Source of the DNA: Apostichopus japonicus | Lineage: Eukaryota; Echinodermata; Holothuroidea; Aspidochirotida; Stichopodidae | DNA length: 64,000 nucleotides | NCBI RefSeq assembly: GCF_037975245.1 | Contig: NC_092570.1 | Location: forward strand, 1,302,501 to 1,366,500 | Direction of reading: 5' to 3' | Notes under the pieces: generated by a model | What the model saw: only the letters and a program-made list of their open reading frames with translations | Told to the model about the DNA's origin: nothing | Databases searched by the model: none | Shown here: one piece after another, positions 40,120 to 44,508 of the stretch | Position numbering within the stretch: the stretch's first letter is position 1 | Layout: each line of letters starts with the position of its first letter | Position numbers and translations under genes: made by a program

Positions 40120-40491
40120 TCAACATTTATGGCCGTAAACGAAGAAAGTGAAGTCCATACCGCGAAGTATTTGCGATGTTACTTTAACCTCGATACAATT
40201 TTCGCCTGGACCTCCTGCTATCCGGTGTGCAGTCCCCCCTGTGTCATCGTCCCAGTTATCATATACTAACACACCGGTAATCGTCTCGTTGGGTTTCTTG
40301 CGGTACTGAAAGGTGTACACCTTCCTCTGCGGGAAGATTTCGTAGTACTCTCGACATTTATCTGTATACAGCACGAAATCCTCTGCACTGTTGTCTCCTA
40401 ACACCATATTGTGTCGACCGGTCATATTTGCTTTCTTGGTGATACTGGCATGGTTACGTTTCGTAGCCAGTGGGATTTTACGGGGAATAAC
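40120..40491 (-). CDS. MBF2-like domain exon (terminal exon)
   Basis: Acceptor at 40492-40493 is preceded by a long C/T tract (40501-40530 region); the frame is open from the first base and closed by TAG just before it, so the exon start is well placed. Encodes [12 protein letters not shown], then a domain with two cysteines and the MBF2-family pattern D-x-W-x-D-x-T-G-G ... GGPGE ... S-Q-x-x-x-G-x-x-F-x-x-x-V-Y-G. Ends in TGA at 40122-40120. If it were a separate gene, a signal-peptide exon would be expected upstream, and I see none. Confidence 0.72.
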   Translation of the reverse strand, partial: VIPRKIPLATKRNHASITKKANMTGRHNMVLGDNSAEDFVLYTDKCREYYEIFPQRKVYTFQYRKKPNETITGVLVYDNWDDDTGGTAHRIAGGPGENCIEVKVTSQILRGMDFTFFVYGHKC

Positions 40492-43400
40492 CTAACGTAA
40501 TATTCGAGAGAGAGAGAGAGGAAAAAGAAGGAAATTTTATTATCACTTTGAAATTGAAAAATTGTAGACGTAATAAGTTAATAGGGTCTATACATATATG
40601 TTCATTCTGTATAGCAATAGTATAATCAAATACAGAAATGTAAACGATTTGGTAACACATATATGCATCAGGTGACCGCCAAAGATTTAAATCTGACCCG
40701 CGAAAAAAAAAACCTGCTCACAATCTTGCAGAATATGTATGCTGACCTTAACGGCTTTGAGCTTGATCGTGTTCCTCCCTAGCTCCCCTTTGAGAAGTTT
40801 TGGTTCCAAAATGGAGGTTGCTTAGATGCAAAACGGGGCTACATTTTGCAACTTTTGAATCAATGTTGAAGAATTTCTATTGTTTATAGGTTGTACCGCA
40901 CATCATACACGGTGTATAATAAATGATATGTGGGCGGGGTACCCTTATTTTCATTTAGATTGATAAGCCCTATACAATAATGCACATACTTGTAAACTGT
41001 GTACGGTGTAGCGCTTTTTAGCCAACCTGGGGGATTACCCCTTCCCCACCCTTGGTACATGTAAATTGTGTATGGTGCACGGTTAACTAAATGTATACCC
41101 ACCACTCGCGGCAGGTTCAAGTAAGTTTCGTAAATTTCTATCATTTTGTATTGGAAATAACGGATGAAATTATGCTGAACGTTTAAGAAATATACTACAA
41201 ACAAATTATGTTTTTTTTTTATCTTCCAAAATTTGCATATAAATAATAGTATATACAAATACAGATGGATGTATTGCAATGAATATATCAAACGAAGAGT
41301 GTGAAATCAGTCTATAGCTTGAATCAAAAATCATATTTAAGAATGTTTACCTGTGGGATCGCTTTTTTGCTCTCTGAAAGAACAATACAAGGAAGAGAAT
41401 TCAAAGTTTCCAATGACGTAATAAGTGTAATTGAAATAAGTTACACACCAAACTCAAACGCCGTATTTATACGAATTCTGTAACCTGATACAAAGATATA
41501 TCTAATTATTTATACATGCAAATATCAATCAAATAAAATGTGTATCTTTCATTTAATGTAGAAGATTCCTTATAATTTCACTATAACGATGTATACGTTT
41601 ATTTCGAATTAGAATTATCTGTAAAGTTCGAAGGAGAGATATCAATAAAATATACATTATGCATTTACGATATATCAATTAACGGTATCACTTATTCATT
41701 GAATATATATATAAATATATATATATATATATATATATATATATATATATATATATATATATATATATATATATATATATATGTATATATATATATATAT
41801 ATATATATATATATATATATATATATATATATATATATATATATATATATATATATATATATATATATATATATATATATATATATATATATTGCATAGA
41901 ATGTAAATCACCTTCCATAACAAATACTGCTAAATCAGCTCTGTTAACCTCCTTTAGAGCTTTGGCTAAACAGCCAATGGTTGGTTGCACAGACGTCCGC
42001 TTCCATTGTAGCAGTGTCTGATATTTGATTTCTTTGCTCTCTCTGTTGTCTCGTTCAATGTCATCAAGCATTCCTTCAGTCAGTCCTAGTTGTCTTCCAA
42101 GGAATCTCCACCCCACAAGCCGTCCGGCCAATTTCTGAAAATTAATTGAAATAATTGGCATGAAACACATTTCAAACACACACATATAGGTGTGTTTTAC
42201 ATTCAGACCGAGGACCCCATTGGTTTTTTCCATTGTTCAAATCCATGAACCCTAACCTTAACAATACCCCATAACAATACAATTCTTCTGAGGACGTGGT
42301 GATTCTTTTGAAATAAAGTATGAGGACCTGGAATTCCTGTAAGTCCTCAGTCAGAATACAGAACAAGAGCACACGCACCCATAATCACACACCCATTATA
42401 TAGGACTATATACATGTGCAGAGAGGTGTGGAGGGGAAGGGACATCATGCAAGGCCACGTATGCACTCCCAGTTTATCGTCGTACCTCTAACTTCTGGAA
42501 CACAGGAGGGGCAGGGGAGGGGTGGATATTAGGATACCCAATATGTTCAATGAGCGTGTTTTCGTAAGAAAATCAACAGAAAATCAATCTGACGGTACTT
42601 TGGTTTCGAGAAACTAATCCCTCACCCTGCTACATTTACACTTGTAAGTTCCCTTGTATCAAAAGTGTTTCATGCTGACAGTAAGTTACGTGTCCATGCT
42701 CTACGGTTCTCAACGGAACACATGTCATATATTTGGGTGAAGGAATAGACTAAAGAAGATGATAAATGAGCGATAAAGAAAATAATAAGGAAACGAGGAA
42801 TCAAATTTCAAACCAGAAGGAGGGATTCAGAAGCTAGTGCAGTATTGTCTTGGTCTTGCACGTCGTTACTTGCCATTTCCCTATATTTACATCAGTTGTG
42901 ACCTGAGGGAGAGAAATGGATAAAGAATGTAACAAATCCCATTGACTGCTTTCCTATTTTGTCCCCAAAAAACTATTTAAAAAACTGTGCTGCTTTCTTT
43001 TTCATAAAACAAATTCCCGCCATTTGGGGGGGGGGGGGTTAGGTTACCTGTCATACTTTTATAATGAGAAATGCCTTGTTGTTAATGATATAAAATGCCC
43101 TATTTGTTGAGAATTAACAACACAAATGTTATTAAAATAATGACCTATTGTTGAAAACAAATCATTAACTGCATAGGACCTGTGGTACGAAAATCACAGA
43201 AGATAAATGTTTGAGGTCAGTTTTTGTGTCGCCCCTCAATGAAAGCCAAAAAAAAATCATCTTTTACAACAGATCGACTTGGGGTATCACATGCACGAAG
43301 TCAAGATCTACATTGTAAGCCTATATATATATATATATATATATATATATATATATATATATATATATATATATATATATATATATATATATATAGGGCT

Positions 43401-44508
43401 ACATATAAACCTGGTACAGTTAGGCAGGTTAGATGGTAATGTAATTATCTGACTTACCATGTAAAACAATAGATGCCTCTGTCGTGACGTGATTGGATCA
43501 TGGAAGTATAGGCCTACACACAGTACCGCGGTGGAACTTCCTTGTTGATGTCCACAGTATAACAATCGGAGTTCTGCGCCAAAAATGTCCTAACAAGCTG
43601 GTTCAGATCAAGGAGTAAAAATAAATCGAGCAGAATATTCTGACAAAATATAGTAGCGACTTGTGTCCACAATAAAACATAAATAAATAAAACGTAACGA
43701 ATATAACAGTCAAATGAAAGTCATTTCTATGTATGGCAATGAGTAATGTGTGTATGTATAGGCATACAACGGGTAGCAATACAATATATTATTGCCTGTG
43801 TTATAGTATACCGTCATTTGGTCATAGTGCATGTATTCAGCTATGTGTAGCTATGTATATATAATAGTAGCAAAGAAAAAGTAAACATGAAACAGTCTAT
43901 AAATGATAGATGAGTCACCCGAGACGACTTTTTAGTTTCACATTCAACCGTAGCCTAAATCGGTCAACGTGGGAATCAATGAAGACAACCGTGTTACTCC
44001 TCCTTCTCAATCTATGATTGAAAATTGTAAGCAAGAATATATCTTTATAGGCGACAGTCTATATAGTAATAACTGCAATACCTTACTCGGATTTTTAATG
44101 GAGGCTTCAAGGTTTGATTGACAGATGACCGCCAGTTCTCCCCTGCTGTTTATCATGACTTTTCGACGGTACTTGTACATTATTTGATCAATGTCCATTG
44201 TCTCTTTAGAAAGTATATTTAGCTGTCCATTGGGACTCAAAGGATGTTTTACCTCACAGTTGTACCAGAGTGCTTTTTAATTTAAGACATAAAGATCTGT
44301 GCATTACATTTGAGATTCATGTATTATAAACTTAGATCTCTCTTTTATTATTCTCCTGCTTTCAATGTAGACTTTTATATTTCAAAATCATGTAATTCAC
44401 AAGATCATGAAAATATAATGATCATTCTCCTTATAATAAAACTCACAGTTTCAACTTGGATGCCAGAACAGTTAATGAGTGAAACACCCTTGGTATCTTC
44501 GACTCCAT
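40120..44508 (-). CDS. Death domain - MBF2-like domain protein (5 exons, about 277 aa)
   Basis: Exons in transcript order are 44447-44508, 44082-44235, 41912-42134, 41351-41373 and 40120-40491. Phases chain without a break (2, 0, 1, 0) and all borders are GT/AG. Residues 1-72 are unrecognised and basic (KYRRKVM). Residues 73-146 are a death domain ([35 protein letters not shown]), the helical bundle used for homotypic assembly in apoptosis and innate immunity. Residues 147-176 are a basic linker. Residues 177-277 resemble the insect MBF2 family: HNMVLGD, then [20 protein letters not shown], then [15 protein letters not shown]. No signal peptide is visible, although insect MBF2-type proteins are usually small and secreted, so I infer a cytosolic adaptor. 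Weak points are the first exon, whose TATA-like sequence sits too close to the ATG, and the moderate donor after the death domain. The two domains could belong to separate genes. Confidence 0.62.
41351..41373 (-). CDS. 23-nt microexon linking death domain and MBF2-like domain
   Basis: A 23-nt segment lies between a strong acceptor (tgttctttcag) and a good donor (cacag/gtaaac). It takes phase 1 and gives phase 0, encoding (E)SKKAIPQ. It is the only small segment I found that restores the frame between the two domains. Its existence rests on splice signals and phase only. Confidence 0.5.
41703..41892. repeat. (TA)n microsatellite beside the death-domain exon
   Basis: About 190 bp of TA, ending 19 bp from the predicted donor of the death-domain exon. 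All three open frames through it are artefacts of TA periodicity. Confidence 0.97.
41912..42134 (-). CDS. Death-domain exon
   Basis: Acceptor ttttcag (good T tract), phase 0 in. Encodes the whole death domain: [18 protein letters not shown], then [11 protein letters not shown], then YQTLLQWKR, then [20 protein letters not shown]. The W-x-x-L-x-x-x-L-G-L pattern and the LLxWKR helix are typical. The chosen donor is GAAG/GTGATT (phase 1), directly before a (TA)n tract into which the open frame would otherwise run as repeated Tyr-Ile. Confidence 0.82.
42135..44081 (-). other. Long intron of the death-domain gene
   Basis: 1.9 kb with a (TA)n tract and a poly-G run (43026-43038). No further exon is required, as the flanking exons join in phase 0. 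Confidence 0.55.
43320..43395. repeat. (TA)n microsatellite
   Basis: About 75 bp of TA inside the long second intron of the death-domain gene. Confidence 0.96.
44082..44235 (-). CDS. Death-domain gene, coding exon 2
   Basis: Acceptor ctttgag, donor AAG/GTATTG; phase 2 in, phase 0 out. Encodes a charged segment with [20 protein letters not shown] and [12 protein letters not shown]. The frame stays open for 41 bases upstream of the chosen acceptor, so the exon could begin a little earlier. No domain recognised. Confidence 0.6.
44447..44508 (-). CDS. Death-domain gene, putative first coding exon
   Basis: ATG at 44508-44506 opens [20 protein letters not shown] and ends in phase 2 at a good donor, GTGAGT. 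It fits the phase of the next exon. A TATATAAG element at 44521-44528 on this strand is only 12 bp from the ATG, so either it is not the core promoter or translation starts later. This is the least certain exon of the gene. Confidence 0.45.

Follow-up and report, generated by a model that had tools for sequence, protein, structure and literature searches.

The window analysed here is a 64,000-nucleotide stretch of the genome of the sea cucumber Apostichopus japonicus (assembly GCF_037975245.1, NC_092570.1, positions 1,302,501 to 1,366,500), in which position 1 is the first letter of the stretch. On its reverse strand, predicted splicing makes the core of one gene readable as a death domain followed by a short linker and an MBF2 domain. 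MBF2 is known mainly from small arthropod proteins associated with insect defence and saliva, and its molecular roles are little understood; most of the related proteins known are secreted. Death domains are signalling modules that act by assembling in the cytosol. The core comprises three exons:

41912 to 42134, reverse strand: death-domain exon (PF00531), starting in phase 0 and ending in phase 1
41351 to 41373, reverse strand: linker exon ESKKAIPQ of 23 nt (2 mod 3), bridging phase 1 to phase 0
40120 to 40491, reverse strand: MBF2 exon (PF15868) with the stop codon, the 3'-terminal coding exon, starting in phase 0

A preliminary description of this locus had proposed a classic death domain ahead of MBF2, and Pfam profiles found both domains above their cut-offs. 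The death-domain exon matched PF00531 at 39.3 bits (cut-off 22.6), and the suggested profile check of the C-terminal domain against Pfam MBF2 was significant: PF15868 scored 58.8 bits (cut-off 25), with positions 1-90 of the 90 in the profile covered. All motifs of the proposed MBF2 signature (DxWxDxTGG, GGPG, SQxxxGxxFxxxVYG) are present in the MBF2 exon, including the letters [13 protein letters not shown] and [15 protein letters not shown]. GT-AG junctions and matching phases link the three exons in a single open frame, with 1,420 bp between the death-domain and MBF2 exons. The 23-nt exon had the top score among seven candidates in the window intron and two in the copy of the gene on contig C22 described below. 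The codon directly 5' of the MBF2 exon is a stop in the same frame, and the sole methionine ahead of the domain adjoins the domain start; the MBF2 exon therefore requires an upstream coding exon. The product of the exons found has a maximum hydropathy of 0.82 over 19 residues and no strongly hydrophobic segment. The fold model of the MBF2 domain reached a mean pLDDT (predicted local distance difference test) of 85.6. The HARP1 structure 9wia was outside the fold matches listed for this model (library to April 2026), and at the sequence level the domain matched HARP1 chain 9wia_A with an E-value of 1.7e-8. The solved death domains nearest to that of the family were those of RIPK1 and FADD.

The genome search covered 671,581,487 bases in 35 contigs, with the window on contig C10. 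The family search found 25 MBF2 exons: 18 on C7, five on C9, one on C22 and one in the window. The Death profile search listed 150 matches, those scored among 204 candidates. Outside C7, six of the seven MBF2 exons (four on C9, one on C22 and the window copy) have a same-strand death-domain exon within 25 kb upstream, compared with a chance expectation of 0.02, the copies being duplicates and hence not independent. These counts support recurrence of the death domain and MBF2 order within the A. japonicus genome. The order had been put forward as a new architecture, and this suggestion stands: besides the recurrence, our literature search on MBF2 with death domains, echinoderms or sea cucumbers returned no description of the fusion, the one paper mentioning MBF2 and death domains together doing so in passages that have no connection. 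A term search in the main text of the Holothuria genome paper (PMC13228809) found neither "MBF2" nor "death domain". The accompanying view of MBF2 as mainly an arthropod domain held for where it is best known but not as a boundary, given the 25 exons found here and the PF15868 domains reported in the corals Montipora and Acropora in PMC11639872. Many of the 150 listed death-domain matches lie on C12, at about 19.4-34.2 Mb (not tallied).

The C7 MBF2 exons occupy 17.66-18.06 Mb and 19.93-19.96 Mb, with 16 in one cluster and two further along; L007/L008 and L022/L023 are near-identical pairs. None of the 150 listed death-domain matches lies near the cluster; the two on C7 are found at 5.2 and 8.9 Mb. 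With a profile made from eight family members, 10-kb stretches at six of the 18 C7 copies likewise gave no death domain. Of the 17 C7 copies in which the frame ahead of the domain was seen, 14 have an in-frame methionine there within the domain's own exon, the exceptions being L007, L008 and L014. The C9 MBF2 exons L013, L016 and L019 have no methionine ahead of the domain. In the five C7 proteins checked, N-terminal hydropathy peaked at 0.55-1.71, one of them above 1.6, and a clear signal peptide was absent. In the MBF2 tree, which held 20 of the 25 copies with the window copy as L020, all five death-domain-linked rows formed a single clade (support 100/97, one change). Outside the tree were L008, L022, L023, L024 and L025 (near-duplicate, divergent or partial), L025 being the sixth death-domain-linked copy.

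The window gene has a close counterpart on C22, carried by the following feature:

34690 to 44733, no strand assigned: segmental duplication on C22 with the gene inside, 86.8-96.0% identity in aligned pieces

Between C10 and C22, divergence was 6.0% in non-coding sequence and 7.8% in the three coding exons. The death-domain, 23-nt and MBF2 exons are open in both copies, with splice sites intact, and the 23-nt exon differs by one substitution. Three indels, each of 3 bp, distinguish the coding exons of the two copies, compared with 7.5 indels expected at the non-coding rate. Under neutrality, the probability of no frameshift was about 0.005 and that of no stop about 0.19. The core exons of the two copies thus appear to have been kept open more than chance would give. 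The omega value by the NG86 method was 0.53 for MBF2.

On C9, two genes were read from the death domain through the stop: gene A (L040 and L028) and gene B (L042 and L029). The phases of the C9 death-domain exons are identical to those of the window copy, and in both genes an exon of 120 or 114 nt, phase 0-0, stands ahead of the death-domain exon. Between the domains lie two conserved candidate exons, each 2 mod 3 long. The first is a 17-nt exon, GELCHK, identical in A and B. The second, of 134/140 nt, has a strong donor; the helix it encodes is hydrophobic, averaging about 3.16 in hydropathy over 19 residues, and is predicted to be transmembrane (TM). Either exon links the death domain and MBF2 in frame; with neither, the frame is broken. 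In the spliced models of A and B, Pfam recognised the death domain (56.2 and 65.2 bits) as well as MBF2.

At the splice thresholds used, the A and B introns contain no hydrophobic candidate other than the helix exon, for which there is also an alternative, shorter donor. At the same thresholds, there were no hydrophobic exon candidates on the reverse strand of these introns or in the window intron. Splice sites and phase of the TM exon were read in genes A and B only, where it keeps both splice sites and frame, with indels of 3 bp. Its protein has six copies in the genome, all on C9 and none on C10 or C22. Four of the six lie between death-domain and MBF2 exons, one follows a death domain without a later MBF2, and one precedes an MBF2 without an earlier death domain. 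A third full-length copy (C9:14056263, 93% identical) was recognised solely by its protein match and its position between the domains. The C9 introns 5' of the MBF2 exons also contain tandem repeats of about 870 bp (L027, L028, L029). A coding reading of these repeats was rejected, as no exon was evident in the open-frame list of L028, and they were treated as intronic.

The position of the TM exon between the domains suggests that part of the family may be membrane receptors and not cytosolic proteins. The preliminary description had suggested that the domain may act in the cytosol, as a sensor or effector. That role may fit the window copy, which lacks a strongly hydrophobic segment, but does not extend readily to the C9 genes.

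Comparing the six C9 death-domain exons two by two gave an NG86 omega above 1 in 13 of the 15 pairs. In 11 of the 15 the exons had diverged further than the introns beside them (pooled 0.173 vs. 0.105). The one-ratio M0 model gave an omega of 1.70, not significantly different from 1 (p = 0.07). Allowing a positive class in a site model improved the fit over the nearly neutral model (twice the log-likelihood difference, 2dlnL, 10.3; p = 0.006), with 30% of sites at an omega of 3.9. The test was coded by the author and run on a tree topology fixed from FastTree, and gene conversion among tandem copies can inflate it. Ten sites had a posterior above 0.8, two of these above 0.95, and six of the ten fall in one short stretch, which we take to be the helix 2-3 region. 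By the site model only, the C9 death domains appear to be under diversifying selection. Omega was 1.35 for the linker exon (not significant, p = 0.42) and 0.57 for MBF2 in three C9 copies (p = 0.09 vs. 1). In window-to-C9 comparisons, dS (synonymous divergence) was above 2 or saturated, while dN (nonsynonymous divergence) was 0.40-0.46 for MBF2 (three copies) and 0.68-0.82 for the death domain (six copies), which points to long-term constraint.

At the 5' end, the proposed chain of five exons in one frame was only partly borne out: the death-domain, 23-nt and MBF2 exons do chain, and the first two exons were not confirmed. The features flanking the core in the window are:

44447 to 44521, reverse strand: candidate exon 1 region, with an ATG at 44508 out of frame with exon 2
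44082 to 44252, reverse strand: candidate exon 2, putative coding, phase 0-0, open with GT-AG sites; broken in the C22 copy
39724 to 39729, reverse strand: AATAAA, a possible poly(A) signal some 390 nt past the stop codon, a sequence match only

A start at the ATG at 44508 was rejected: with the donor at 44447/44446, exon 1 is 62 nt long and a stop then opens exon 2. The frame compatible with exon 2 contains no ATG in the exon 1 region. A shorter exon 1, with its donor after codon AGG (44488), restores the frame; it was also set aside, the donor looking weak by eye and the ATG being absent from the C22 copy. The genome search turned up a single further copy of candidate exon 2, on C22, and this duplicate is broken by a 1-bp deletion and a large deletion. 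Exon 2 also matched Gemini_BL1 with E = 0.0043, short of the cut-off of that profile, and this was taken as chance. No convincing first exon was found in the window 5' of the death-domain exon. On C9, L045 has a 65-residue open frame with a good donor 5' of its death-domain exon, and L044 has a shorter similar frame; no such frame was listed for the other four C9 copies.

What was computed, namely the domains, their recurrent order, the exon phases, the C9 TM exon, the single MBF2 clade and the frames kept open under divergence, would fit a family of death-domain receptors and sensors, with membrane members on C9 and probably soluble members in the window and on C22, all derived from one ancestral joining of a death domain with the MBF2 beta-sandwich domain. 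We give this proposal about an even chance; its splicing, topology, ligand, adaptors and signalling outcome are inferred. The C9 proteins would place a cytosolic death domain before a membrane helix and an outward-facing MBF2, and the window and C22 members would carry a short linker in place of the helix. MBF2 would serve as the recognition module, its ligand being pathogen- or damage-derived or another MBF2 protein, for example one of the standalone C7 copies. Ligand binding would cluster the death domains, which could then recruit FADD/RIPK1-like adaptors through death-domain contacts and lead to caspase or NF-kB signalling. The soluble copies may act as cytosolic sensors or adaptors, or as decoys tuning the receptors.

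More tentatively, and with somewhat less than even confidence, we suggest that the C9 proteins could be "reverse" death receptors of a kind not described before. These would be type II proteins with a fast-evolving N-terminal intracellular death domain and an MBF2 ectodomain reading pathogen- or saliva-like ligands, with the window and C22 copies as soluble decoys or cytosolic sensors.

Several observations weigh against the receptor and sensor family. Start-to-start spacing from death domain to MBF2 on C9 is long, 10.7 to 23.4 kb. One of the five C9 MBF2 exons, C9:14354104, has no upstream death domain among the matches listed, and two of the six C9 death-domain exons have no downstream MBF2 exon. 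Three of the six TM-exon copies are partial. By NG86, dN exceeded dS in five of six TM-exon pairs, with few synonymous changes, and the coding status of this exon therefore rests on its splice sites, 3-bp indels and hydropathy and not on omega. The TM exon may moreover be optional or unused, since a 17-bp exon of the same phases offers an alternative, and flanking charges did not settle the C9 TM topology. The C10/C22 omega of the death domain, 0.95, indicates weak constraint there. In none of the copies looked at could a definite 5' end be assigned.

The alternative that survives best is that all members are intracellular, with MBF2 as a cytosolic oligomerisation or ligand-sensing module on a death-domain adaptor, the TM exon used rarely or never and the 17-bp exon forming the normal link. 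The unchanged 17-bp exon in genes A and B, the excess of dN over dS in the TM exon and the confinement of that exon to C9, with neither a candidate in the window intron nor a match on C10 or C22, would all suit it. So would the five C7 proteins without a clear signal peptide (one exceeding 1.6 in hydropathy). Still, we consider it less likely than the main proposal. Against it, the TM exon retains splice sites and frame in A and B with 3-bp indels and has a third full-length copy at 93% identity; HARP1, moreover, is described among oral-secretion effectors, and lufaxin is a salivary protein. Evidence from REPAT proteins falls on both sides: PMC8156158 reports one moving between cytosol and nucleus, and predicts REPAT33 to be secreted.

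A less probable explanation is that neighbouring death-domain and MBF2 genes were duplicated jointly and encode no fusion protein. It would account for the large C9 distances and for the unpaired exons, two death domains without MBF2 and one MBF2 without a death domain. It fits poorly with a window gap of just 1,420 bp, with the in-frame stop and lack of a usable start at the window MBF2 exon, and with the absence of a methionine ahead of the domain in L013, L016 and L019. On both C9 and C10, moreover, the phase-1 ends of the death-domain exons and the phase-0 starts of the MBF2 exons have exons of 2 mod 3 length between them. The five death-domain-linked MBF2s tested also form a clade apart from the C7 copies, of which 14 of 17 have their own upstream in-frame methionine. 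Least probable is that the C9 family left a pseudogene in the window, now decaying and with a functionless fusion: it would explain the lack of a convincing start codon and first exon, the broken C22 exon 2, the death-domain omega of 0.95 and the slightly higher divergence of coding exons (7.8% vs. 6.0%), but both copies keep their frame with 3-bp indels only (combined neutral probability about 0.001, 0.19 x 0.005), the core splice sites are intact on C10 and C22, and MBF2 omega is 0.53.

A fusion of MBF2 with a death domain ties MBF2 to a known signalling output and offers a route to asking what MBF2 binds. If the receptor and sensor family is real, echinoderm immunity would gain a further family of sensors, and a death domain on the N-terminal side of the membrane would widen the range of death-receptor designs.

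Elsewhere in the window, the forward strand at 12686-36422 carries two carboxylesterase-domain exons followed by an open frame that encodes a hydrophobic helix, together taken to be a neuroligin-like gene. The C22 duplicate (about 11,233,300-11,241,650) also carries the forward-strand frame 35652-36422, read as the end of this gene. The reverse strand at 56702-62185 presumably has the layout of an EFHC ciliary protein: DM10 domains in three stretches, with an EF-hand match that falls below threshold. Divergent forward-strand open frames with short charged coiled-coil-like stretches begin at 44952, about 430 bp from candidate exon 1, and a promoter shared with the fusion gene is possible. Elsewhere in the genome, COX1 pieces were found on C29 (14745-31219), besides C35, a 16,099-bp contig taken as mitochondrial. 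The mitochondrial COX1 translates properly under the echinoderm code, having nine AAA codons at Asn and five AGA codons at Ser positions.

Among known systems, lufaxin, a protein of sand fly saliva that inhibits complement and coagulation, counts with those closest to the sea cucumber fusion family. The family has its PF15868 domain in common with the MBF2/REPAT proteins, namely Bombyx MBF2, the Spodoptera REPATs and Helicoverpa HARP1. As described in PMC8156158, the REPATs are pathogen-induced genes encoding small proteins, REPAT33 has a signal peptide, and the Bombyx MBF2 coactivator activates transcription with MBF1, FTZ-F1 and TFIIA. Unlike the REPATs, the sea cucumber MBF2 sits after a death domain and, on C9, after a predicted TM helix. 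It also differs from secreted MBF2/REPAT proteins in having no signal peptide directly before the window MBF2, which is preceded by the linker and death-domain exons.

With TNFR1, Fas, RIPK1 and FADD, the family shares a death domain of RIPK1/FADD type, to which the C9 genes would add a single TM segment and a candidate ectodomain. Known TM death receptors carry the death domain C-terminal to the TM segment and have cysteine-rich repeats, whereas in the C9 proteins the death domain is N-terminal to the predicted TM helix and the candidate ectodomain is MBF2. The tandem death-domain genes, in a genome with at least 150 listed death-domain matches, resemble the expanded echinoderm death-domain/NLR (NOD-like receptor) families; the MBF2 partner, not found for those families in the literature searched, sets the sea cucumber genes apart.

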